In this document: piece after piece, positions 16,960 to 64,000 of the stretch
How positions within the stretch are numbered: position 1 is the first letter of the stretch
Layout of the letters: each line of letters begins with the position of its first letter
Assembly: GCA_004369045.1 (NCBI GenBank)
Contig: ML213518.1
Span: forward strand, 216,257-280,256
Length of the DNA: 64,000 nt
Reading direction: 5' to 3'
From: Heliocybe sulcata
Taxonomy: Eukaryota; Basidiomycota; Agaricomycetes; Gloeophyllales; Gloeophyllaceae
Made by a program: the position numbers and the translations under genes
Notes under the pieces: generated by a model
The model's input: only the letters and a program-made list of their open reading frames with translations
The model's database searches: none
Told to the model about the DNA's origin: nothing

Positions 16960-19900
16960 TCACTGTGACTGATTGCGTATCTCTTCGAAGCGCTTTACAA
17001 CAGTACGGATGTTCGGGCGGAGAGCAGGGTCACGGGCCCAGCAGGTTTCCATGAAACTCCACACGTCGTTGGGGATCTTGAGTCCTCCTTGTGGTCTCGG
17101 TGGGCTTCTGCCCAAGTATACTTCCGACAAAATGTGGTCATTCAATGTTGTCCCCGTGAACGGTCGCTCGCCAGAGTAGACCTGAAGTATCGCATGCCCT
17201 AATCATCAATAGTCCATGCACCCGTACTCCATACATACCTCCAAGCAGACACGAGCAAATGAGTAGACATCAGCTAGGGCTGCGATGTCAACGCCGGACA
17301 GAACAGTTTCGTAATCGGTGAAAAGTATTTCAGGTGCCGTGTACCGGGCACTACGAGACCACTCCGGCCAGAGCCCGTGTGCACAATGGCACCTACCAAA
17401 ACCCCCGATCCTTGCGTGCCCGCTGTCATCGATCAATATGTTCGACTGCCCATGTTCGTTATGGTAGTGAAAAGCAATAGCCGGCATGCCACGTACCGGC
17501 TTTAGATTTCCATGCGCAATACCCAGCCAGTGGAGATAGGCAAGCCCTCGTGCAACTGGATACAACCCAGTCAACATGCAGTTACGTACAAGGTCAGTAG
17601 AGTGTATTCGCTAAGTTATATAACCAGGATCGCTCCAAGCCAATCAGCGGATAGAAATGGTCGAAGATTCCTTTCCTGGGCGTTCCTTAATACTGGTTAT
17701 ATAACCTAGCAAATACACTCTAGTCTGAGCATATCGCTTACCAGCCTACTGACAACCGCGCTCGAGCGGTTCGTGTCAAGATAATCGTTGATGGTGCCGT
17801 TGGCCATCCACGGCGACAGAAATACTCCGATTACAGTGGAAGTTGCTTTATCCTCAACAAGGAAGGGAATGATATTTGCATGATCTGTTTGAGACCATAA
17901 GTGCACTGCATGTGCTGCAATCTGGTTTATGTAAAGAACAAGGTCAATGCGTGAGGTTATTTCCATTCAGTCCGAATACCTTCTTGTCCCGAGGGAGGCA
18001 CTGTAGTTTCACGGCGACCTGCATCAGCTGGCCATCGTCGCAGCGCACGGTGCTCCGGTAAATAGGCCCGGTCTCGCCTTTCGTTGCATGGGCAGTAGGC
18101 AATTCATATTCGCAACGCCGTAGATCTAGAGTGCGAGAAGAGCTGTCCCTTCCTAAGTCCCCAGGTATACTGGAGAAAAATATATCAGGTGCGGGTGAGC
18201 CTGCGAGCCATCGAGCGAAGAACTATTCATGCAATGAAATGATCAGTATCATCCATCGGATACAGCGTGTCCATGGTTATACTCACACTTTTAGGCAGGA
18301 ATCTACGACGAGTTCTCAAGAGTTGGTGCAACGCACTGAAAGGCAGGTTGCAGCCACACTCGAACTCGGACGTAAACGTTTCCTGGTCAATCCTACGAAA
18401 ATCTAGGGAGAGCAAGTCCATTATATCTTCCTCGAGATTAGACGATACTGATGGTAAGTCGAATACGGTGGAAAGCCAGCCGAAGACATGTCCAGTATTG
18501 GTAATGAATTTGTCTTTCGTCTGCTGATCCACCAGCCCTTGGTTCATCCCGTATTTGATCACCAGTTCCGATAGTTTTTCGTCGACATATCTCTGCATAT
18601 CGCTAAGCTCACGCAAGGGGGCGCTGCATGGTGATACAAAACACTTTGACGGCGCAATAGCGCATAGGCCCTCATAGATACCCTCGGTCGGCCTGGCGGT
18701 CAGCAGAACCCTGAAGCCCTGACGCCCGGCCGGTTTCCGGCGGGAGCAGAGCTGTTGAAGCAGCTCGAGTCCTCCGTGGCATCCGTCTAGTGCATCCAGT
18801 ACTATGAGAACTGAATGCCTGAACTCACTGGGATTCAGGTGTCCCAGCGGTTCAGCAATCAGCTTCTCGAATTGGTTATACGGTCCAATGGGAATCTGTC
18901 CCTCGAGAGCACTTAGAAGCCGGGGGCGAAAGGCGGGAAATGTGCGAGCCAGCTCGCAGGCGATAGTGGGGAAGACATGTCGTAGGCTGTTTCGATGTGG
19001 GTCCTGCTTTGAAAAGAAGAAACACGCCACGGGTACTTCCTCTGCTGCAAGTAGGCTTGCTACAGTGTGGCAGACGGTCGTTTTCCCCGTCCACGCCGTA
19101 TCGCACATATAACCGATCACGGGATTATTGAGATCCTCGCTTTTGGCGAATGTCGTGATCTCGTCGATCAAGGCTCTGCGAGTGCCTATGAAACAGCCAC
19201 GTTCCTGGGACCATCCGTTGTCTACGATAACGCGTTCACGAAGTCTCGAGAAACCTGTCGTGACCGTGTCAAATGTCCAATCAGGGTAAGATGTAACGAT
19301 TAAAATACCTTCTGTCATAGCGTGCAAGTTGGCTCGCGGTTTGTCGCCAGATTCGGCGCTGACTTCATTCAAATCCCGTGGCGATGCAGCGCGGTTCTCC
19401 TCGCATGCACGCCTGAGGAAGAAACGCGACAATGCGGCAGTAATGACAGGGCTATGACCGGCATCCAGCGCCAAAGCAAACATGGGATCGGCCGAGGATT
19501 CCATGTAGCGAGAGAAAGAAGGATGCATCACTTCACCATTGTGAGTCAGAACCGAGCGCAGCGACTGGATAATCATGTCAACTTCCTCTTGATTTCTGTC
19601 TAGGATGACGGCTATCGCTTTGAGTCCTATCTGATAGCGCCTTCCATAGATGATGAATGCGAGGACCTCTATGAAGATGCATTGCAGACTGGGTTCTTCC
19701 AAGCTTTCGAAGGCAGAACTGAGGATAAACCTATACATATTACGGAGGCCCTTCTCCGGATCAAGGTCATTACTGCCGCTCCCAGCCAATTCAGCCAGGA
19801 GGCGCAGGTTCTTGTCAAGGTAGAAGGTCTTGGATCTCAGCAGGAACTCGCACGCGGTCGAAGCCCAGATGAAAAGACAGCCAGCATTAAGGGCGATCTG

Positions 19901-21661
19901 CATCCTGGTGTAGGAATCTGGCCAAGGTTGCTCCTTCCCATGTTGGCACGCTATTTCCAGGAACTTCCTGTCAAAATAGGTCTGAATGTCCGAGGAATCG
20001 CGCAAAATCGAGGCCTTCCCTAAGAGCGACCGGGAGATTTCAGGGTACCGAGCTAGACCAACATCGAGGCCACTGACTGGCCTTGTTGTTATCACGAATC
20101 GAAGATGCCCTCGCAACGTGGCCTCCGCATCCTGCAGTTTTTTCAATAGCTCCGGTCCCTTGTCACACTCATCGAGTGCATCGAGTAGTACCAGTGACAG
20201 CCGCTTGGCAGGCATGGAAATCGTCAGCGGCTTCAGAAGAAGCTCCTCCAACTGATTCTCCGGATGAGGGATGCCCTTCTCAAGGCATTTGCTGAGGGCT
20301 ATCCGGTAGGCAGGAAGTAAGTTCGCTAGCTGACGAGCAAGGGTCGTAAAGACGTTCTCAAGGGAGCTGCGTTTTGGATCATCACGCGAGAAGAAAAAGC
20401 ATGCTCCAAGTAGTTCTTCTTCCGACAGCCTGTTAGCGAGTGTATGCGAGACGGTGGTCTTGCCCACGCCAGCCATATCGCACAAGTAGCCGATTGGAGG
20501 AAGATCGCGGTCGGTACTGGTGGCGAACTCAAGGAGATTGTTGACCAGAACTTCGCGGGTGCCATCGAGACATGTTCGCTCCCTGGACCAGTTGGCCTCG
20601 GGGACGACATGAACAGCATCCAGCTTAGCAAGGCCTGACAGAACCGCATGGTGAGGTCAGACTACAAAGAAAGTCTATGACGCGGCATACGTTGTTCGGT
20701 AACTACGAGATTGATGTTCCTCTTCATGTCCGCCACGAGGCTCATCTCGTTGAAGACACCCAGCCTCAGTGATGCGTTATGCGATGAAGAGAGGCTGAAC
20801 ATATCCTTACCAGGAGTAGGCTCGTCACATGGTCAAGCATGTCGTCCATTGCCATCCGAAGAGTCTTGGTCGATGCATGTCGCGCGGCACGGTCGAGCAC
20901 ATTGCGCTCCTGCTCTAGCTCTACGAGCCTTTGTAGGTCCCTAAATGCCGGCTTCGCACTTAACTGACACATGACGAGCTAAGCGCTGACATAACAGACT
21001 GGCGCAAGTCGAGGTTGTCCTCATTATATATGCTTTGGAATTCCGCGTCGTACTTGTGTAGAAGGTGCAACCAGTCACGTGTTTTCGCTTTCAATCGTTC
21101 CAGCTCGTCCGCGTTGTCTCGGACATCCTGGCATCGCGGGTCGATATCTGTGAGAAGCCACTAGCTGGCGAGACGCACCTGGACTATCTCGATGCCCTTC
21201 CCCAGGAGGCCTCCTATAGTTTTGAGGTAAGGAAAGTGCTCCAGACATTCCGCCACGTCCATCAGCACCGAGACTCCCAGCCCTACAGATGATAGTAGGT
21301 TGTTCACGGCAGAGGATTCCTCCTTTGGCGCTAGACTGCACACCGAAGGACTGCCGATTCGGGTATGGGAAGATAAATCGGCGTTGTTCTGCGCATCCTT
21401 CATGCAGAAGACGTTGATCAGATAATGTTTGCGAGGCAGCATAGTAGAGCACCTCACCTTTTCCGAGCTCGGCGTTGGACCTGCAGCGTCGATAGTGGAT
21501 GAGCGACCAGGAGCGGGAGAGCGCCGCCGTAAAAATGCGGATTTGAGCCAGTTCTTGACCACAGATGACGGCTCAGGTGCAGGACACGCTGGACGCGACG
21601 AAGAAGGCGAAGCCTTGCCCTTGCCATTCGACGCTCTGGCTCTGGACTTGAATCGATGCAT
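16960..21661 (-). CDS. STAND protein with two NACHT modules and a C-terminal pseudokinase
   Basis: NLR-like signal-transducing NTPase. The N-terminal exons give a basic Ser-rich start (MHRFKSRARASNGKGK), then helical segments (VLMDVAECLEHF; DELERLKAKTRDWLHLLHKY; LEQERNVLDRAARH). NACHT 1 has CDMAGVGKTT (P-loop, about 20485), DALDECDKG (Walker B) and FVITTRP. NACHT 2, about 450 residues on, repeats the layout: RGCFIGTRRALIDEI, CDTAWTGKTT, DALDGCHGG, VLLTARP. After an intron at about 18285-18215 a kinase fold follows: GPIYRSTVRCDDG, QVAVKLQ (beta-3 Lys present), IIPFLVED, LAYLHWLGIAHGNLKPSN, IGGFGRC, YTAPEILF, ADVYSFARVCLEV, ARDPALRPN. HRD is HGN and DFG is GFG, so catalysis is not expected. No start codon precedes the kinase exons in their frame, which supports one fused gene. 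Fungal STAND proteins of this type are linked to non-self recognition; the role here is inferred. Confidence 0.78.
17598..17722. mobile_element. 125-bp MITE-like element with 30-bp terminal inverted repeats
   Basis: The ends 17598-17627 and 17693-17722 are inverted copies of each other (TAGAGTGTATT... and its complement), differing at 2 of 30 positions. Each arm contains the palindrome TTATATAA. The outermost TA on both sides would be the target duplication of a Tc1/mariner-type element; if TA is not counted the arms are 28-29 bp. There is no coding capacity. It lies inside an intron of the pseudokinase part of the STAND gene, 14 to 19 nt after a GTAAGC donor (minus strand, 17741). The assignment rests on structure only; copies elsewhere in the genome would confirm it. 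Confidence 0.65.
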
Positions 21662-42461: not shown

Positions 42462-44291
42462 TCATCCTGGCTCTATCATACCTTCAGTATAAAAATGAGA
42501 TTCTGGATCAGGGAAGAAAGGGGCACGCACAGATTCGTAGCCCGCCTGGTATAGCGACGGCCCGCCTTTGGAAGTATCCATGTCGAAATCCGTCATCTGG
42601 TGCGACTCGACGTGCACGACGACCTAGGAGCAGACACCATATATCAGCGGCGACTCTCCAGCGCAGCGCTGAGATTAGACGTACCCCTTGCGACCTTGCG
42701 GAGTTGAGCTTCAACACGCCCGACTGTAGACACCGCATGAGCAGCGCGAAAAATCGTAGAAAAGAAAGAACCGTACCCTCCGCGCCCGCGGCGCCTCCCG
42801 GTGCGCGGTAGTCGTCGCCGCCGAGGGGTCCTTCTCGCTCGGCTCGGACGTGGCGTGGTACCACCCCGCACGCGAGTTGAGCGTCGACATCAGGGAGTTG
42901 GTGTACAGCTTCGAGAGGGGGATGTTGAACGCGAGGTGCCTGTGCGCAGAGGTAGGTTAGCACGGTGCATGGGTCTATAGGGGGTGTGGGACGGACAGGC
43001 CGGATGTCTATGGGCGTGTGTGGTCAGTTGGGTGGGGAGGGGAAGGGGGGTGGGTGGGGTGCTTACGCTGCCGACGAAGCAGCCTACGTCGGCGATGGCT
43101 ACGACTGTTGTGAGCATGCCGGTCTGGACGGTTGCTGAGGACTGGATTTCAATAGGGAGACAGTTCCAATCGGAGGGGCGGCTTACACCGAATGATCTTG
43201 TTGACGATGTCATCAGTAGTCGGGAACCCCGTCTTGTGAGCCCTCTGGCACACAAACTCATCAGCCACGCAGCCGCCGCACGAACCTCATCATCCTCACC
43301 AGATGCCAGGTCAGTGAGATAGTGATAATGAGGTCACAGATCGCATTCGATATGAGCCACACAATCACGATCGGCTGGAATTTCTGAAACTCGGCAAAGT
43401 GAGGGACTATGGTGACGCCGATAGCTGTGCCCAGCCCGCCCACTAAGCCCCCAATACAACTCGCTGTGGGTTAGAGGATTCGGTTGCGAGGGTTGGATGG
43501 CTGGACGTACGCAAGCCACCTGATGCTGCTATCATGACGAGTATGACGAGCCACCAGCTCTGGGTAAGCACCTTGATCCGCCATGCAAAGAAGAATTGGA
43601 CAAGTGCCGCAATTATACCCTGGAGGATATGAGATGGTAAGATCAATGAGAATGTGAGAGCGGCTCAGGGACACGTACGGTCATGGCGGGATCTGACGTC
43701 GAAGTAAAAGGTTAACGCGACTTAACGGGCTGTGCAAAATAATACGCACCTGTAGCGAATACTGGAGGGCACGGCGAAAGACTATTAGCTTATGCAGCCT
43801 ACAGGGACGTATCTGGACACTCACCCCAGTCCGCTCGAGAGATGAAATCTTGATCACCTGAAAGCAGGAGCTTTGGCAGGCATGGCAACGGTCTGTCGGC
43901 GACGACTTACCAAAATGGAGGATTACAGACTCGTACATCCATAGGCAGTCGAAGATACAGTTCAACGTATCTGCCACGAACAAGACGAAGACCTGAAGAC
44001 ATCTACTAAGCACGGGGTTTAGTATGACGGTGCTGCTGGCGTACGTAGGACTTCATCCATAGTCTGTCTCTGACGGGGGTGTTAGTCTATCTATCGAGTG
44101 TAGGAGCGTGATGGACGTGCTTTCGGAAAGACCGGAAGTAGATGAATGTCTGTGTCACCATTATTCCATAGAGAAGGATGCTGAAGAAAAGGCCTATTAT
44201 GGAGGGGCCGTGTCTAGAGACAGAGGTTCAGCACCCAGATGCCTATGTCATGGAATGAAGCGACTTACACGACAGATGCTGGACTGCCCAT
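42462..44291 (-). CDS. DUF6534-type multi-pass membrane protein of mushrooms
   Basis: Member of a large Agaricomycete family of seven-span membrane proteins of unknown function. Exon 1 (from 44291) reads MGSPASVV and joins HGPSIIGLFFSILLYGIM, VTQTFIYFRSF, then DRLWMKSY. Further exons give VFVLFVADTLNCIFDCLWMY, GIIAALVQFFFAWRIKVLTQ, SWWLVILVMIAASGG, FQPIVIVWLISNAICDLIIT, HKTGFPTTDDIVNKIIR, VQTGMLTTVVAIADVGCF and SKLYTNSLMSTLNSRAGW. The last two blocks are the family's conserved cytoplasmic loop and last span. The cytoplasmic tail ends YTEGMIEPG. About nine short exons are needed. The tail contains SHQMTDFDMDTSKGG, a motif often seen in this family. No biochemical role is established. Confidence 0.82.
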
Positions 44292-54815: not shown

Positions 54816-57800
54816 ATGTCCGACTTGCAAACCTATATTAGCGACAATGTTATTCGTGTAAGTGTTCGTGTTGCTGTTTTGACCGGCCGATTCTGACCGT
54901 GTCGACAGTTCTTCGGTCTCTCTGACAAGGCTATAGTTGACTATATTGTAGCCTCAGGTATGTACTATCCGATTCAGTATATGTCACAGATACTGAAACT
55001 GTTCTACTGTAGCCTCTTCTTCAAAAAGTCCTGAGGCCTTGTTCTCCGCCCTCAACGGTTATGGCTTACCTGACTCGGCCGCTGCGCAGACGTTCGTATC
55101 CGAAGTGTACAGCCGCGTTCCGCGAAAGTCAAAGCACAAGAAATCCGACGACTCTTCACGAAGACAGGCGGAAAAGGAGAGCCGGGCTCTTCAGTCACAG
55201 AAGTACTCTTTCGTGCTCGATGACGATGGACCGTCGCGGGATGTGGTCGACCTGAAGCCTCCGGAACGCAAGAGCAAGGACAAGCACGAGAGGCACACCC
55301 GGAAGCGTGAGTCTGATGCACGAGAATGGGAGAGCGATGAAGAGGAGACGGCTCGGAAGAGGTGGAAGGGGGACGATGACGGTGAGAGGGAAGAAGCGGG
55401 GGCAGAGGACGGGTTGGACATGGAGGACGAGCAGACGCGGAGGGAGAGGGAGAGACTGGAGGACCAGAAGGAGCGAGACGCCTTTGCCCAGCGGGTACGC
55501 GAACGCGACCGCGAGAAGACGAAGCGCGTGATCGAGGACCGATCCTCCAAGTCGGGTGATGCTGCTGAGGCCGCTCGACGACGACAACTTGCCGACGACG
55601 CTGATGCCAGGGAACGAGCCATGCCTTCGCTCCGTGAGCACTCTCGACAAGAGTACCTGTCTAAGCGAGAGATCCAGCGGCTCGAGCTGCTCCGCCAGGA
55701 AATTGCTGACGATGAGGCGTTATTCCGGGGCATGAAGGTCTCAAAACGGGAAAGGAAGGAACTGGACCGGAAGAAGGAGTTGCTGAGGATTGTCGAAGAG
55801 CGTCTGAAGATAGACGATAAGTACGAGGGATATCAGCTGCCCGAGGACTATATCACCGAGCAGGGGAAGATTGACAAGAAGAAGAAGGAGAATGTGCTGT
55901 ACAAGCGGTACGAGGAGGCGAAGCCCAAAGATGACCAGTTTGTCACTGATGTTGACCAGTGGGAGGCCAAGCAGACAACCCACAGCGCGTTCAAGGTCGG
56001 CGCTATGGATAAGCCAGAGCTGGTCGAGGAATACGACTACGTCTTTGACGAGAGTCAAACGATCAAGTTCGTCATGGATGTGACGTTGCATGGGACGCCT
56101 ATGAGCGAGAGGGATCGCCTGTTGCAAGCACAGATAGACGAGGCTGAGAAGAGAGGTGAGTAAGATAATGACCGATGCCATTCTTCGCAGCTGACATGCC
56201 GTATCGACAGCCAAGAGTATTGACGAGACGCGGAAAACTTTGCCCATTTACAAGTACCGTGAAGATCTCCTAGCTGCCATCAAGCAACACCAGGTCCTCA
56301 TTGTGGTCGCGGAGACTGGGTCCGGCAAGACAACGCAATTGCCGCAATACCTTCACGAGGCAGGCTATACCGCAGGCGGGATGAAGGTTGGCTGCACACA
56401 ACCGCGCCGCGTCGCTGCCATGTCTGTGGCTGCACGTGTGGCTGAGGAGATGGGCACGAAGGTCGGTTACGAAGTCGGCTACTCCATCCGGTTCGAGGAT
56501 TGCACAAGCGACAAGACCGTGTTGAAGTACATGACCGATGGAATGCTGCTCCGAGAGTTCTTAACCGAACCTGATTTGGCAGGCTACTCGGCACTTATTA
56601 TCGATGAGGCCCACGAGAGAACGTTGAGTACGGATATTCTCTTTGCTCTTGTCAAGGTGCGCATGGCGGTTTCTGATGATTTGGATAGGGTGTTAACAGA
56701 GACGTAAGGATATCGCGCGGTTTAGGCCTGAGCTTCGACTGCTGATTTCGAGTGCGACTATGGACGCGGAGAAGTTCAGCGAGTATTTTGACGAGGCGCC
56801 CATATTCTACGGTAAGCCCTCTGTCTGTTTTGTCTTGCGTTCCGCTAACATGATCGGATAGTTCCTGGGCGACGGTACCCTGTCGATATTCATTACACCC
56901 CTCAGCCGGAAGCAAACTACCTTCATGCCGCCATCACCACCGTCTTTCAGATCCACACAACCCAGCCGAAGGGCGATATCCTCGTCTTCTTTACTGTGAG
57001 TCTTGCTCTTTCTTCTTCTACCTTACGACATGATCTTACCATCAATTACCAGGGTCAAGATGAAATCGAAGCGGCTCAAGAGAACCTGCAGGAGACTGCC
57101 CGTGCACTTGGCAATAAGATTGCAGAACTCATAGTGTGCCCGATTTATGCCAATCTCCCAAGTGATATGCAAGCGAAGATTTTCGAGCCGACGCCAGAAG
57201 GAGCACGGAAAGTCGTCCTGGCCACTAATATCGCCGAGACGTCAATCACAATCGACGGTGTCGTTTTCGTGATCGATCCAGGCTTTGTCAAGCAGAATGC
57301 GTATAATCCTAGGACGGGCATGTCATCTCTTGTCGTTGTCCCCTGCTCGCGTGCGTCAGCGAATCAGCGAGCTGGTCGCGCAGGTCGTGTTGGACCCGGA
57401 AAGGCCTTCCGTCTGTACACGAAGTGGGCCTTCAACAACGAGCTCGAAGAGAATACTGTTCCCGAGATTCAGCGGACTAACTTGGGAATGGTGGTATTGT
57501 TATTAAAGTCCCTCGGTATCAACGATCTGATAGGCTTCGAGTTCATGGACCCTCCACCCGGCGAGACGCTGATGAGGGCGCTGGAGGTGCTCTACGCTCT
57601 TGGAGCGCTGAATGATAGAGGAGAGCTTACTAAGCTTGGACGTAGGATGGCGGAGTTCCCTGTTGACCCCATGTTGTCCAAGGCAATCATCGCCAGCGAG
57701 GACTATTCCTGTACGGACGAGGTGAGTTATGTCATTTGTTGCATGTCTGGCCCGCGCTGACGGGATGGGGTTTTTTTAAGGTGCTCACCATAATCTCCAT

Positions 57801-58538
57801 GCTGTCCGAATCCGGCTCGATATTCTATCGACCCAAGGACAAGAAACTGCATGCTGATCAAGCACGGCAGAATTTCGTTCGGGCGGGTGGTGACCACTTC
57901 ACCCTTCTAAATGTCTGGGAGCAGTGGGCGGAGACGAACTACTCGCAGCAGTTCTGCTATGAACAATTTTTACAGTTCAAGAGCCTTAGCCGGGCGCGGG
58001 ACATCCGAGATCAACTGGCGGGACTCTGCGAGCGCGTGGAGATTGTCGTCGAGACTAACCCCAACTCGAACGATATCACGCCGATCCAGAAGGCCATCAC
58101 TGCTGGGTATTTCTACAACACCGTGCGTGATCGTACTTCTTTCCACTGTTGAGGACTCCGCGAGTCTGACGTTCATGTGATCAGGCGCAACTCCAGAAGA
58201 GTGGGGATTCGTATCGGACGCTGAAGACGAATCAGACTGTATACATCCACCCTTCTTCTTCCCTTTTCCAACACCAGCCACCTGTCAAGACGCTGCTCTA
58301 CTATGAACTGGTGATGACATCCAAGTCGTACCTGCGCCAGGTGATGGAGATCAAGCCGCAGTGGCTAATGGAAGGTCAGTATATACGCTACACCTGCTCG
58401 CGGCATTGTTTGCTGATAAAGTTCGCGTTTGCAGTCGCTCCGCATTACTTCAAGGCTGCTGATCTCGAGCAATTGGCCTCGGGAGATAAGAAGATGCCGA
58501 AGACCATCGGTTCTGCAGGGGACGCCGCAAGGGCGTAG
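54816..58538 (+). CDS. PRP2: DEAH-box spliceosomal RNA helicase Prp2/DHX16
   Basis: ATP-dependent RNA helicase that remodels the activated spliceosome before the first splicing step. The first three exons are short: 54816-54857 ([14 protein letters not shown]), 54909-54957 ([14 protein letters not shown]) and from 55013. They form the conserved N-terminal helical domain. A charged Arg/Glu/Lys linker follows with repeated basic-acidic runs. Helicase motifs are [16 protein letters not shown] (I), [15 protein letters not shown] (Ia), [15 protein letters not shown] (II, DEAH), [15 protein letters not shown] (III), [14 protein letters not shown] (V) and [18 protein letters not shown] (VI). The winged-helix, ratchet and OB regions follow ([27 protein letters not shown]). 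The C terminus ends SAGDAARA. About ten exons are needed. All catalytic motifs are intact. Confidence 0.95.
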
Positions 58539-58893
58539 GATGCATGGACTTTGTATTTGTAAACCTCCCTCATTGCTGTTGTCACGCAGAGCAATAATAT
58601 GTATGCTTCCTCTGCAAGAATCCTACTCGCTCAGCTCCATGGTATCTTTCTTGCTTGGTTGCATAGTCTCCTCTTGCTTGGTTCCATAGTACGTTGCTTG
58701 GGCCAATGATCCTCAACACGCATATACCCGACGATTGTATTCCAGTGACTAAACGCTCGAGACAGGCATGTCTCGCGCGAAGGCAGTATGGGCATAAAAC
58801 TCATATATAGGCATGCGTTACACCCGGGATGGAAGTACATGTGCAGAGCGGACGATATGGAGCGAGGTACAGGAAACAATCGACAGTGACCGC

Positions 58894-59539
58894 TTAGAAC
58901 TGCGATCATATCCGGTCAGTCCTGTGTAATGGCTGCAGAAGAACGGTAGAGAAGGACGCACCCGTAATGGCTGGAAGAACCAGCGGTTCTTGCCGCTCGT
59001 GTACCTGTCCTCCAAGAGCTTTTTGATATTCTTCTTCGAGTCCTCGCGCTGCGTGGGTTCGCGGAAGGTGTCGGTGGAGACGGAGCCCTTGAGCGACTCG
59101 AGCTCGAGCGCGTACCGGGTCGGGAAGAGGTGGGAGTAGTTGACCACCTACGCACACCGCACCTCAGCATACATTCCAAGACAAGACAGAGGGAGAGGGG
59201 AACGCACCTTGATGAAAGGCTTGACCTTGCTCCGCCTCTGGAGCTTCTTGGTGCCCATACGCTTCGTGACCTTGCGGGGGTAGCGCTCGATGCCGGCGAC
59301 GACGGCGTGGGGGTAGGGCCGTTCCTTTGTGCCCTCGTCGTTCTGCTTGATCACGACGACCTTCTTGCCGGCCTGGCGGCCCTGCAGCACGATGGCGACC
59401 TGTGCGTTCCCTTCAGTCTACAGTCGTTCCTGCACACTTTCACGACGGAATGCTCACTTTTCCGGGCTTGTAGACTGCAGAGAGGGAGTGGTTAGCGCGG
59501 ATTGCATGGCGAAGATGGAGAGGACGTACTCTTGACCAT
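58894..59539 (-). CDS. RPL27: 60S ribosomal protein eL27
   Basis: Component of the large ribosomal subunit. The start at 59539 gives a 10-nt first coding exon (ATGGTCAAGA), joined to TCTACAAGCC to read MVKIYKPGK. The next exon is [20 protein letters not shown] with [18 protein letters not shown]. The next reads [20 protein letters not shown] and, in the same exon, NRWFFQPLR. The last coding exon (58899-58894) is TTC TAA only, giving the conserved terminal LRF. Without this splice the protein would end in an unconserved Asp. The length of about 136 residues is standard. Four introns, including one in the first codons, are typical for fungal ribosomal protein genes. Confidence 0.94.
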
Positions 59540-60810
59540 CTTGAGTGGAGGACGGAGGCGGCGGGTTGGGGACTTTGCGATTAGCGCGGCGCGTGGCGTG
59601 GGCTTTGAGTCGGCGAACGCCTCTCGGCAGATGCCGAATATACTATATAGTACCTCTTCTTGGCAGGCGGCCTGCTTGCTTCCGATGTGCCGCTTATGCT
59701 TCGACGTGCGCATTGTCTTGCCTTCTCTTTGGATTCGCTTTATGGAGTTGATTCTGACTAGATCCGACTAGCTAGCAAGATGGTACGGGACTCAAGGTTT
59801 GCGGACGACGTACTCGGCTCGATAGTGGAAGCGCCATCCTTGCCTGCTCGCGGACCGTTGCAGTCTCCACTTGCCATATATCTACTGTCCAGAGGAGGCT
59901 GAGCGCCGGGTGTCCTGATCTTGGTAGTTTCGCCAGGGCCTTCTCTACTCGTAAGGGGGTGTAACTAGGGGATGCTGCTTCTGCAGACGTCGACCAAGCG
60001 TGGTTTCGACCAGTGTCGCGGAGGCGCTATTGTGTCTCCTCGTCAAGCTGTTCAGGCTGTCCGGTTTGCTCACTCAGGCTTTAAGCTTTAACACTTGCAT
60101 CTTGTGTCCTCGGCCGTGTTATTACAGGGGCCGCCGTCTCTGCATCGGCTCTGTCTTTCGTCTTAAGGTACCCTATGGCAGTTGTCTTGCTCAGCCGCCT
60201 TTGCCTTCTGCCCTTCCTGCCCTCTGTTTGTGCGGCGTACGTGTGTCCTGGGGGACCCGAAGAAACTACTGTCGAAGCATTCCTTATGCGCCTGTTCTAC
60301 AATACTTCCTCCGAGACTGGCTATCAATTAGGTCCCTCTTCCAAGCCCGGTGCTCTCATATCAGCTGGTTCCGCGCTCTAATGCCACGGGGATCGTCTCC
60401 TTTAGTGCCGAAGTCCTTCGTGTTTCTATTCCTTCATTTCGCGGGTCACCTTTGTAGCTCAGCATTCCATGTTCCGTTCTTACTTTCGCTGGGTATCTCT
60501 TTGTGGTGATGACTGCCCAGAATGTAATTTTAGTCTGTAGCAATCATGTCCGTTACCCGGATCTGTACTCGTCTCAAGTCACATCCTCCGTGGAAGTGCA
60601 GTACAATTCTAACATGTCGCCCATCTTCACGAGTATCGCGGAGTTAAGTACGTATCGCAGCCCATGGGGAACGCGGAGCTTCGCGCCCTCGGGCACGTGA
60701 GAGGAACTATGGCCTCTCCTTACGCTAACTTTGGTTCGGGATATACTAATCCTCTCGCTGGTCTGCTCGATATCCTCCACCGTCTCTGCCCGTTGTAGGG
60801 GCAGAGAGAT
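59540..60810. other. Divergent intergenic region between RPL27 and the mitochondrial carrier
   Basis: About 1.3 kb without a supported gene. A plus-strand open frame at 60000-60509 (169 codons, Leu/Ser/Arg-rich) lacks family features and resembles translated C/T-rich non-coding sequence. Both promoters lie here. Further upstream exons of the carrier cannot be excluded. Confidence 0.4.
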
Positions 60811-62216
60811 ATGCCATACAATGGACCCACCAACAGCATGATTGGTGAGTCCTTGCCCGACATCATGCGTGCCGTCCAAGCCTGAGGAAGTACCTGGCCG
60901 CAGCGGGTGCGGGCGGCGGTCTTGTGGCCAGCGTAGCTACCTGTCCTTTGGATGTCATCAAGACCAAGCTGCAAGCCCAGCAGACGGCGCACGGCGCGCA
61001 CGGATATCTGGGTGTGATCGGTGCGTCGCACATCTTCTTAATCTGCCAGGGTTGCTGACCGAGGGTGCAGGGACGGTGAAGGCGATCCTGAAGCGGGACG
61101 GGCTGAAGGGTCTGTATAGGGGTTTGGGGCCGACCGTGCTTGGCTACCTCCCGACGTGGGCGATCTACTTTGCGGTGTACGATGGGATCAAGGGGTACTT
61201 TGGGGAGGGCCCGTCTGGGCAGGGGCAGCGCGGGCACTTCTACCCTGCGCCGCATCCGAAGGGGTACCAGCCTGCGATGCGGGAGCATCCGTGGACGCTG
61301 CACATACTGTCTGCCATGATTGCTGGCGCGACGAGTACGGCTGCTACGAATCCGCTGTGGGTTATCAAGACGCGCTTTATGGTGCGTGCTTCTTGCCATC
61401 TTTTGCCCTCGCTTCTCCTCCGCATCATCGATTCTCGCCCATTCCGTTCTGTTCACTGCAGTCTCTTGCTTTTCCTTAATCTGGTCCTACTCTGCTACCT
61501 CGATCCCACCCTATGTTTGCTTCTCTCCGTTCACTATCTCCGCTCATCATTTCCGTGTTTCCTGAGTCGCTCACTATGTCGACAGACTCAATCCTCGGAG
61601 GAAGTACGATACCGGCACACACTAGACGCGGCCATCCGAATATACCAGAATGAAGGCATCCGCGCCTTCTATCGTGGTCTCCTCCCCAGCCTCCTCGGCA
61701 TCATCCACGTCGCCGTCCAATTCCCGCTCTACGAGAAATGCAAAGTCTGGGCTCGTATGTGCCCTCATCTTCCTCTTGATCCCCTCCCTACTCACCCGCC
61801 TTTCATCCAGGGGGCGACTCCTCCCAGCCACTAAGCAGCAAATCCATCCTCCTCTGCTCCGCCGCATCGAAGATGACCGCATCGGTAGTAACCTACCCGC
61901 ACGAGGTCGTGCGCACGCGCCTGCAGACGCAGCGTCGGCTCCTTGCCGACCGGCACGCGGCGCTCGCGTACGCGGGGCTCGTGCAGACGACGCGGAACAT
62001 CGTGACGGAGGAGGGGTGGCGCGGGCTGTACAAGGGCTTGTCGATCAATCTGTTTAGAACTGTGCCGAATAGCGCTGTGACTATGCTAACGTGCGTCTTC
62101 GGCTTTGTCTCCCTCTCTCCCTCGTTCCATGTTATCCTTCGTGGCCGTAATTGCCGTGCTGATGCGTACTGGACAGATACGAATTACTGATGCGGTGGCT
62201 TTCGGCGCCGTCTTAA
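60811..62216 (+). CDS. Mitochondrial NAD/pyrimidine-nucleotide type carrier (Yia6-like)
   Basis: Inner-membrane solute carrier of the mitochondrial carrier family, NAD transporter (Yia6/Ndt1) branch. The start at 60811 gives MPYNGPTNSMI. The intron 60845-60904 is removed to read MIAGAGGGLVASVATCPLDV. The three signature motifs are CPLDVIKTKLQAQ, NPLWVIKTRF and YPHEVVRTRLQTQ. The Trp in the second motif (PLW instead of PxD/E) is the hallmark of the NAD/folate/pyrimidine branch. Other matches are GLKGLYRGLGPTVLGYLPTW, GIRAFYRGLLPSLLGIIHVA and WRGLYKGLSINLFRTVPNSA. The last exon (from about 62177) joins T|YELLMRWL and ends LSAPS. The second repeat is followed by an unusually long intron (about 61380-61586). 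Substrate is inferred from the branch. Confidence 0.9.
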
Positions 62217-62652
62217 TATCCCCTCGTGCACACCCGTTCTCAAGATCGATCACAGCTCACCCTGTTCTCGCTACCAGTACTGTTTCCGCGTCGTGCTCTG
62301 GTGTACAGAAGGACGATTATAGAGCTAGGGTTCGGAAGTCGGCCGTCAGTGTATAATACCTCTGCGCAATCTGTTTATTCATTGCAATACTAGTCTGTAT
62401 TACTTCGGTAGGCCGCCGGAGAGCGTGGCCGGAGTGGGTCGTGTATCAGCTTATGTGTGACTGCTAGTTGTTCGGTATAGCTACGTGTTTGTACTGTTCG
62501 AAGATACTCTGCTCTGTCACGGAGTCTTGTCTCCGAGGATGGGACACATGCTCGCACTGCTGTGTTCGCAGATGTTTGGGTACCAGCCACGAATGGTACA
62601 ATCTGGATCGCACAATTACAAGCGTACTGTTACACAGCATACACAGAAACAG
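62217..62652. other. Intergenic region downstream of the carrier gene
   Basis: About 435 bases with no supported gene. It becomes more AT-rich to the right, marking the transition to the repeat-bearing end of the window. Confidence 0.4.
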
Positions 62653-62830
62653 AATGTCTGTTGGCAATGCTCGAGATAGAGAGAAAGGTAGGCACGGGGA
62701 AGAAAATGTCTGGTTGCAATGCTCGAGATATAGAAAGGTAGACATGGTGAGCAAAATGTGTGGAGAGAGAGAAGGAGGCATAGAGGGAGAAAATGTATCG
62801 TGGCAATGCTCAAATAGAAAAGAAAGGGCA
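62653..62830. repeat. Degenerate ~50-bp tandem repeat
   Basis: About 3.5 copies of a unit of 50-52 bases that begins AATGTCTG(G)TTG(G)CAATGCTCGAGAT and goes on with an AGAAAGGTAG(G/A)CA stretch and AAAATGT. Unit starts are near 62653, 62705, 62755 and 62792; the third copy lacks the CAATGCTCGAG part. On the minus strand the units are pyrimidine-rich. They lie just beyond the last well-supported exon of the minus-strand micro-exon gene and may belong to its 3' part. Confidence 0.6.
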
Positions 62831-62843
62831 GATATCTTGCAAC

Positions 62844-64000
62844 CTGAGGATCAAAATAGGACAACTTCTCAAGTTGTTTGGGAGTCAGGATGGCTTTTCC
62901 TTCACTCCTTGCCATCTGTCTCAAGAGTGATCAGGCAAAGCTTATCAGGACAAACATGATAACTTGCCCCAGGTATATTTCAAGGCTATCCCAACAATGG
63001 CCTGAACCACCTTTTCATATTCATCCTTGTTTCTACGCCAGAGTGACTTCAAGATCTTGACCCATTCTTCTTCCTGCTCCCAAGCATCCTTGATCTCTGA
63101 ATGCATTCTATCCAGATGCCCTTTTGCTCTAAGGCACTGCAGAATATAATGTGCACGTTTCTCAAGGGCCAAGCTGGCAGTATGAGGAGCAGAGGTTCCT
63201 GCCACAATGACCTCTGATTCCAGCACATTTAGTGATTGCATACTAAAATAGGAAGCAGAAATATACCTGCAGCCATAATCACAAAGGATGGACTAGCAAT
63301 ACTAACTGTCTTATCCTATAATGCACATTGGGTCAATGGTGTAACATGCTACAACTGAGAGTTAGACTCACTTGAATAGACAGTGCTTCACAAATTGCCT
63401 GCCATGCATTGAATAGATAGATAGTTGCTAGCAATGAGTGGCAACTGAATATGAACCTACCTCAATCACAGACTACAACATGCAGTAATATTATTAGGTG
63501 ATATTGGAAGAGGCTGGAAGAGAGCAACTGGGCTCACAGGCTTGAGAAAGGGCAGATATAGTAAATGAATATAATATAGACCAGATTATCATAACTCACT
63601 TCCTATGATAGTAATGCCATATCAAGAACAAGTTTCTGTGATAGTGGTAGTCTGAGGCCACTTACGATCTAGAATTGCATATAGGCACTGATCAGCAGAG
63701 GCAGCCTCAAAGCACAGGCAGAGAGCACTCACAGCCTAGGATTGTGCAGAGGGAGCAGTCAGCAGAGGCAGCCTCAAAGCAGAGACAGAGGGCACTCACA
63801 TGCTAGGATTGCAGAGAGGGAGCAGTCAGCAGAGACAGCCTCAAAGCACAGACAGAGGGCACTCACGATCTAGAATTGCAGATAGGCACTGATCAGCAGA
63901 GGCAGCCTCAAAGCACAGGCAGAGGGCACTCACAACCTAGGATTGTGCAGAGGGAGCAGTCAGCAGAGGCAGCCTCAAAGCACAGACAGAGGGCACTCAC
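62844..64000 (-). CDS. Unrecognised gene with single-codon exons (cut by the window end)
   Basis: Not recognised. Read on the minus strand from the window edge, a chain of introns encloses these in-frame, phase-0 exons: GTT (63936), ATC (63869), CAT (63802), GCT (63735), ATC (63668), GAA (63602), CCT (63540), then 12 nt (63472-63461, SVIE), 27 nt (63398-63372, AICEALSIQ), 49 nt (63315-63267, DKTVSIASPSFVIMAA) and 246 nt (63213-62968). The last one includes EVIVAGTSAPHTASLALEK, GHLDRMHSEIKDAWEQEEEW and KDEYEKVVQAIVGIALKYTW. Introns are 53-65 nt with GTGAGT/GTAAGT-type donors and TAG/CAG/AAG acceptors. From 62967 a GC-type donor (G|GCAAGT) may lead to KAILTPKQLEKLSYFDPQ (to 62844); this part is uncertain. 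The protein is helical and charged, with no known motif. The 5' end lies outside the window. Confidence 0.55.
63666..64000 (-). repeat. Five-copy 67-bp tandem repeat; each unit is an intron plus one codon
   Basis: Exactly five units of 67 bases fill 63666-64000. On the minus strand each unit is a 64-nt intron-like sequence (GTGAGTGC at the start, TGCTGAC or TGCTGAT as branch site, CAAT(C/T)CTAG or CAATTCTAG at the end) followed by a 3-nt spacer. The spacers are GTT, ATC, CAT, GCT and ATC in transcription order. On the plus strand, copies 1 and 4 are near-identical, as are 2 and 5, which suggests a higher-order period of three units (201 bases). The array is cut by the window edge, so the total copy number is unknown. 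Confidence 0.9.

Follow-up and report, generated by a model that had tools for sequence, protein, structure and literature searches.

A minus-strand chain of intron-like units spaced by single triplets in Heliocybe sulcata

Gene context and layout of the chain

The window analyzed here is a 64,000-nt stretch of contig ML213518.1 of Heliocybe sulcata. Among the ten ORFs scanned in the window, eight scored above the cut-off for ordinary families (UAA transporter, FAD-binding, helicase parts, C1, HR1, CobW_C, and two mitochondrial carrier pieces), one fell just below it, and one had no match. A gene finder self-trained on the window, with introns of 42–130 nt allowed, produced 22 genes with 115 introns. 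These model introns have a median length of 55 nt (5–95% range, 48–73 nt; maximum, 105 nt), and their commonest donors are GTGCGT, GTACGT, and GTGAGT. An 809-aa ORF on the minus strand (18227–20656) carries two NPHP3_N/NACHT-like NTPase stretches in one frame; this NLR-like gene seems to contain an internal duplication.

The right end of the window holds, on the minus strand, eight intron-like units whose neighbors lie exactly 3 nt apart (Table 1). The original prediction had described seven phase-0 triplets with this spacing, and both their coordinates and their letters were reproduced by scripted cutting; in minus-strand order they read as the residues VIHAIEP. All five outer units have GTGAGT...CTAG ends. 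The first of them, A1, starts at the last base of the window, such that the preceding exon and the full length of the array lie beyond it. The eight units are followed by three short exons and a last open exon, with one intron between each pair of neighbors. When the chain is spliced, the frame is open throughout, as had been claimed, and runs for 125 codons to a TGA ending at 62945. Nine of the 11 visible predicted exons, the 5′ part lying beyond the window, have lengths that are multiples of three when the last one is taken as 269 nt. The same prediction gave this last exon as 246 nt, which holds for 63213–62968 if a GC donor (GCAAGT at 62967) is accepted but not when the exon is read straight on.

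After the short ORF, a second protein-like open stretch (MARSEGKAILTPKQLEKLSYFDPQ...) occupies 62772–62915 of the minus strand in another frame and matches no Pfam family; the gene could extend beyond the stop drawn at 62945. A second tandem repeat (62648–62763; 50 bp, 2.3 copies) lies 3′ of the short ORF on the same strand.

Table 1. Coordinates of the predicted introns and exons at the right end of the window, in minus-strand order. Percentiles refer to the 115 model introns of the window.
Feature	Coordinates	Strand	Length (nt)	Sequence features	Percentile	Following triplet	Remark
Repeat unit A1	63937–64000	minus	64	GTGAGT...CTGAC...CTAG	60th	GTT (63936–63934)	Upstream exon letters left unscored; touches window edge
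Repeat unit B1	63870–63933	minus	64	Branch-like CTGAT	31st	ATC (63869–63867)	
Repeat unit A2	63803–63866	minus	64		47th	CAT (63802–63800)	
Repeat unit A3	63736–63799	minus	64		61st	GCT (63735–63733)	
Repeat unit B2	63669–63732	minus	64		31st	ATC (63668–63666)	
Inner intron i1	63603–63665	minus	63	GTAAGT...ATAG	19th	GAA (63602–63600)	
Inner intron i2	63541–63599	minus	59	GTGAGT...CAAG, weak branch site	6th	CCT (63540–63538)	
Inner intron i3	63473–63537	minus	65	GTGAGC...GTAG	10th		
Exon	63461–63472	minus	12	TCTGTGATTGAG			Open solely in the frame of the chain
Intron i4	63399–63460	minus	62		36th		
Exon	63372–63398	minus	27				In the open chain frame
Intron i5	63316–63371	minus	56		40th		
Exon	63267–63315	minus	49				In the open chain frame
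Intron i6	63214–63266	minus	53	Weak GTATAT donor	3rd		
Last open exon up to TGA	62945–63213	minus	269, including stop				246 nt if ended at possible GC donor 62967

The 67-bp repeat and the inner introns

A tandem-repeat scan found that a 67-bp repeat (4.6 copies, 86% matches) underlies the five outer units. The five repeat introns have pairwise identities of 80–98% (1 to 13 differences over 64 positions) and fall into types A and B, arranged as A B A A B. Of the 15 possible trees of the intron columns, the best pairs A1 with A3 and B1 with B2 (15 changes vs. 18 for the runner-up), which suggests that an A-B pair was duplicated within the array. The copies lie head to tail and each carries a donor and an acceptor, as is the case in intron gain by tandem duplication. 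As copies of a single canonical intron with its 3 nt, the outer five units amount to one independent observation. The original statement that simple minisatellite growth does not explain the chain applies to part of it: tandem duplication explains the five outer units, whereas the three inner units need something else. In copy A2, the branch region is of type A and the 3′ end after it (CTGCAAT) is partly B-like, a combination that resembles an exchange between units. The repeat was also considered as a coding tandem repeat read through on the minus strand, and this candidate was rejected because stops occur in all three frames. A search of viral contigs with the repeat as a DNA pattern gave no match.

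On the most parsimonious tree of the copies, five changes fall in the three triplet columns, compared with 15 in the 64 intron columns. These column tests involve five related copies and are hence indicative: the permutation p for the triplet-column excess is 0.0008, or 0.010 inside the faster 3′ part, with four or fewer changes in any three-column intron window, and the 13 splice-consensus columns have no changes, compared with the 15 across all 64 intron columns (p 0.028). The fast triplet columns are suggestive: they would be expected if the introns were under constraint and the triplets between them were not, and equally if the codons were diversifying.

For the inner introns i1–i3, similarity to the repeat was ranked against 97 model introns of 50–75 nt, drawn from the 115. 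Depending on the pair and the scoring, 3 to 95 of these reference introns score at least as high. The lowest ranks with shared splice ends included are those of i3 against the B units (3/97) and of i1 against B1 or A3 (7/97); for the interiors only, these ranks are 10/97 and 6/97, respectively. By this comparison, i1, i2, and i3 are not clearly related to the repeat, in agreement with the original description of them as unlike it. The first 12 letters of i1 are the same as the repeat start at 10 positions, six of which are donor consensus positions, and the donor of i1 may be a leftover of the last partial copy of the array. Some of the inner introns may be related to one another. The mutual alignment of i2 and i6 scores better than that of i2 with any of the 97 reference introns. 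A 15-nt exact match on the minus strand (blastn E 0.009) connects the 3′ part of i2 (63559–63545) with a site downstream of the ORF (62835–62821), and both stretches read YLPFL in one frame.

Departure from chance, splice signals, and coding potential

The role of chance was assessed for the chain that starts from the donor at 63665, using dinucleotide-preserving shuffles of the sequence after it and simple consensus rules that admit AAG acceptors, which i2 requires. Three introns joined by exons of exactly 3 nt were found in one of 5000 shuffles. Four introns with exons of 3–12 nt in multiples of three were found in none of 5000, four introns with any exons of 1–12 nt in two of 3000, and five introns with exons of 3–30 nt in multiples of three in none of 5000. 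When chains were started from 638 other donor-like sites, taken from both strands of the window, the longest had 2, 3, 3, and 3 introns on these four counts, and none of the 638 sites reached the observed number. It is thus unlikely that the chain is due to chance, which upholds the original prediction on this point, although scores from a weight matrix trained on the window are less favorable. With exons of 1–12 nt, the chain scores 10.8, compared with 10.5, 10.5, and 10.4 elsewhere (best four chains per strand). With exons of any length of 3–30 nt, it ranks second (15.2 vs. 17.5), behind a chain at 43910–43620 in another predicted gene. The weight-matrix ranking for exactly 3 nt holds single introns only, because single introns outscore the three-intron chain. 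The higher-ranked minus-strand stretch (43620–43910) has well-scoring introns and exons of 12–24 nt, so the chain locus is not the only place with small exons; the gene model there contains a 0-nt exon artefact at 43749.

The array units score within the ordinary range of the model introns (31st–61st percentile). The signals of i1–i3 and of i6 are weak (Table 1) and were counted against a gene reading. As the reference introns were themselves picked by score, this percentile comparison is strict. A donor, a branch-like site, and an acceptor are present in every repeat unit, 3 nt separate it from the next, and no unit is an internal intron interrupting a splice element of an external one, as in a stwintron. 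Predicted RNA folding of five of the eight units (two repeat, three inner) is unremarkable (z -1.23 to 0.48), and an Rfam scan of 62200–64000 gave one sub-threshold match only (E 0.97).

In fungi with short introns, splice sites are paired across the intron. If any triplet were skipped, the fused intron would measure 125–131 nt, which exceeds the 105-nt maximum of the model introns, so unit-by-unit removal with every triplet kept is likelier than variable skipping. The units, if transcribed, would probably be spliced one by one, each adding a single amino acid. The idea that skipping units yields a family of proteins, put forward in the original prediction, is not supported by these lengths; failure should rather give intron retention. 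If any of the 11 introns, each tested singly, is retained, the 125-aa frame shrinks to 21–48 aa, so a long array should be costly in output.

There is little evidence that the chain frame is coding. No gene is predicted in 62191–64000 on either strand when the decoder runs at its normal intron penalty. At a first relaxation of the penalty, the chain is taken in another phase, with different acceptors for i3 and i5 and an end at 63301. At a second relaxation (4.4 units), the decoder itself picks the drawn introns from 63933 to 63214 and departs from the drawn last exon by adding introns at 63211–63161, 63156–63097, and 63010–62920. At both relaxations the decoder does not reproduce the first intron as drawn, because it cannot use the donor at the window edge. 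The native coding model gives -6.4 for the last exon and -5.8 for the ORF frame, compared with -31.1 and -32.6 for the other two frames, which hold four and six stops. Purine-N-pyrimidine values (0.26, 0.19, and 0.24 in the three frames) reveal no clear preference. Of 500 shuffles of 62401–63400, 48 contain an open run of at least 115 codons, and the longest real open run in that interval (163 codons) is on the plus strand, outside the chain frame. An unspliced alternative ORF of 98 aa starts at an ATG at 63241 on the minus strand and does not require the array.

Homologs of the downstream ORF were sought in Pfam, PDB, plasmids, viral contigs, and prokaryotes; for a fungal ORF, their absence from these collections says little. 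The ORF has no Pfam match, and the best hit of the spliced 125-aa frame (KAsynt_C_assoc, E 0.13) is far under the cut-off. The best hit among PDB sequences has an E of 0.63, no homolog is present among the plasmids, and none of the 22 pattern matches in viral contigs or the 41 in prokaryote genomes was confirmed. Single-sequence structure prediction gave a helical model of low confidence (pLDDT 56.6).

Possible origins of the chain

The exact spacing, the ordinary scores of the array units and their unchanged splice-consensus columns, the inner units on the same 3-nt spacing, and the one open frame are tentatively explained by the 3′-ward part of an intron-dense minus-strand gene, in which a 64-nt U2-type intron and the next codon would have multiplied head to tail and stepwise splicing would keep the triplets. 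In such a gene, transcription would proceed from the minus strand, and splicing would presumably act unit by unit, since every unit is of normal intron size and complete with donor, branch-like site, and acceptor, and skipping would call for introns longer than those used by the gene models of the window. Each duplication would add one intron and one residue with the frame unshifted, so copies could accumulate. Units that fail to be spliced would be retained and give a truncated protein, and a higher unit number would lower the output rather than diversify it. A variant in which the codon is the diversifying part, with intron-plus-codon units multiplying in frame and changes in copy number adding variable single residues over evolutionary time, appears improbable.

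Nearly as likely as this stepwise-spliced gene is a non-coding or decayed locus. The units, which are or once were spliced, would then belong to a 5′ leader, to a transcript that does not code, or to a gene in decay, and the triplets would not be codons; the short ORF from the ATG at 63241 would follow or itself be a relic. This is consistent with the AT-richer composition of the stretch (GC 0.42–0.46 at 62500–63499 vs. 0.51–0.60 at 56000–62499), with the negative results of gene prediction and of the homolog searches in the collections named above, with the low-confidence helical model, and with triplet columns that change fastest in the unit, as expected if they are unconstrained. The last exon has one open frame in common with the exons of 12, 27, and 49 nt before it, and the chain has short exons whose lengths are multiples of three; both points argue for codons instead. 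The original prediction also offered removal of the whole array with none of the codons kept as an alternative, which is possible.

It is rather unlikely that only the 67-bp array is real, as a minisatellite grown from one intron-bearing unit, and that the inner three introns are coincidental splice-like sites. The rarity of the exactly-3-nt continuation, both in the shuffles and among the real donors, argues against such a coincidence, even though the inner units have weak splice signals, the weight-matrix chains elsewhere come close, and the i1 donor may derive from a partial repeat copy. The insertion of introner-like mobile introns one after another is very unlikely. Similar introns with differing flanking triplets would be in line with such insertions, but blastn found no further copy inside the 64-kb window, the left and right triplets differ in all seven units with both flanks visible, which leaves no 3-bp target-site duplication, and the recurrence of the A-B pair is in keeping with tandem duplication.

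The nearest strings of tiny exons mostly in multiples of three are those of the micro-exon genes (MEGs) of schistosomes, for which exon sizes of 3–81 bp or 6–81 bp, with a majority of 15 bp, are given (PMC10526429). The introns of these genes span 0.1–5 kbp and their exons are usually 15 bp, whereas at the Heliocybe locus the predicted introns are close to 60 nt, seven triplets follow one another, and five of the introns are tandem copies. Exons of 3 nt are described in mouse Ncam and Drosophila TnT (PMC8042270), exons of 1 nt and an adjacent pair of 5 and 12 nt in plants (PMC8831610), three consecutive microexons in human RPS24 (PMC11162997), and a shortest exon of 6 bp with frequent introns of 45–55 bp in Phanerochaete P450 genes (PMC1184071). 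None of the examples compared places a series of 3-nt exons between tandem copies of an intron in the way predicted for the Heliocybe locus. In the open-licence literature, the component parts are known, and neither a row of triplet exons nor a tandem intron-plus-codon array was found. Many tandem introns in one transcript are known from SNHG14 (SNORD115/116; PMC11608373); they yield snoRNA-like RNAs, whereas the Heliocybe units have no Rfam match of note.

If spliced as drawn, the locus would be a natural stress test of the minimal length of consecutive exons when sites are paired across short introns, as well as a clear example of intron multiplication in which the accompanying codons are frame-neutral. 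It would also make intron gain by tandem duplication and the cost of intron accumulation directly measurable from copy number across strains. For this type of gain, a duplicate that brings its own splice signals along is described in a potato RdRp gene (PMC4974935), and in Zymoseptoria within-gene tandem intron duplication is among the types that make up under 1% of gains (PMC4457414). In the cases described there, one event affected one gene, compared with a complete intron plus triplet present in five or more head-to-tail copies at the Heliocybe locus.
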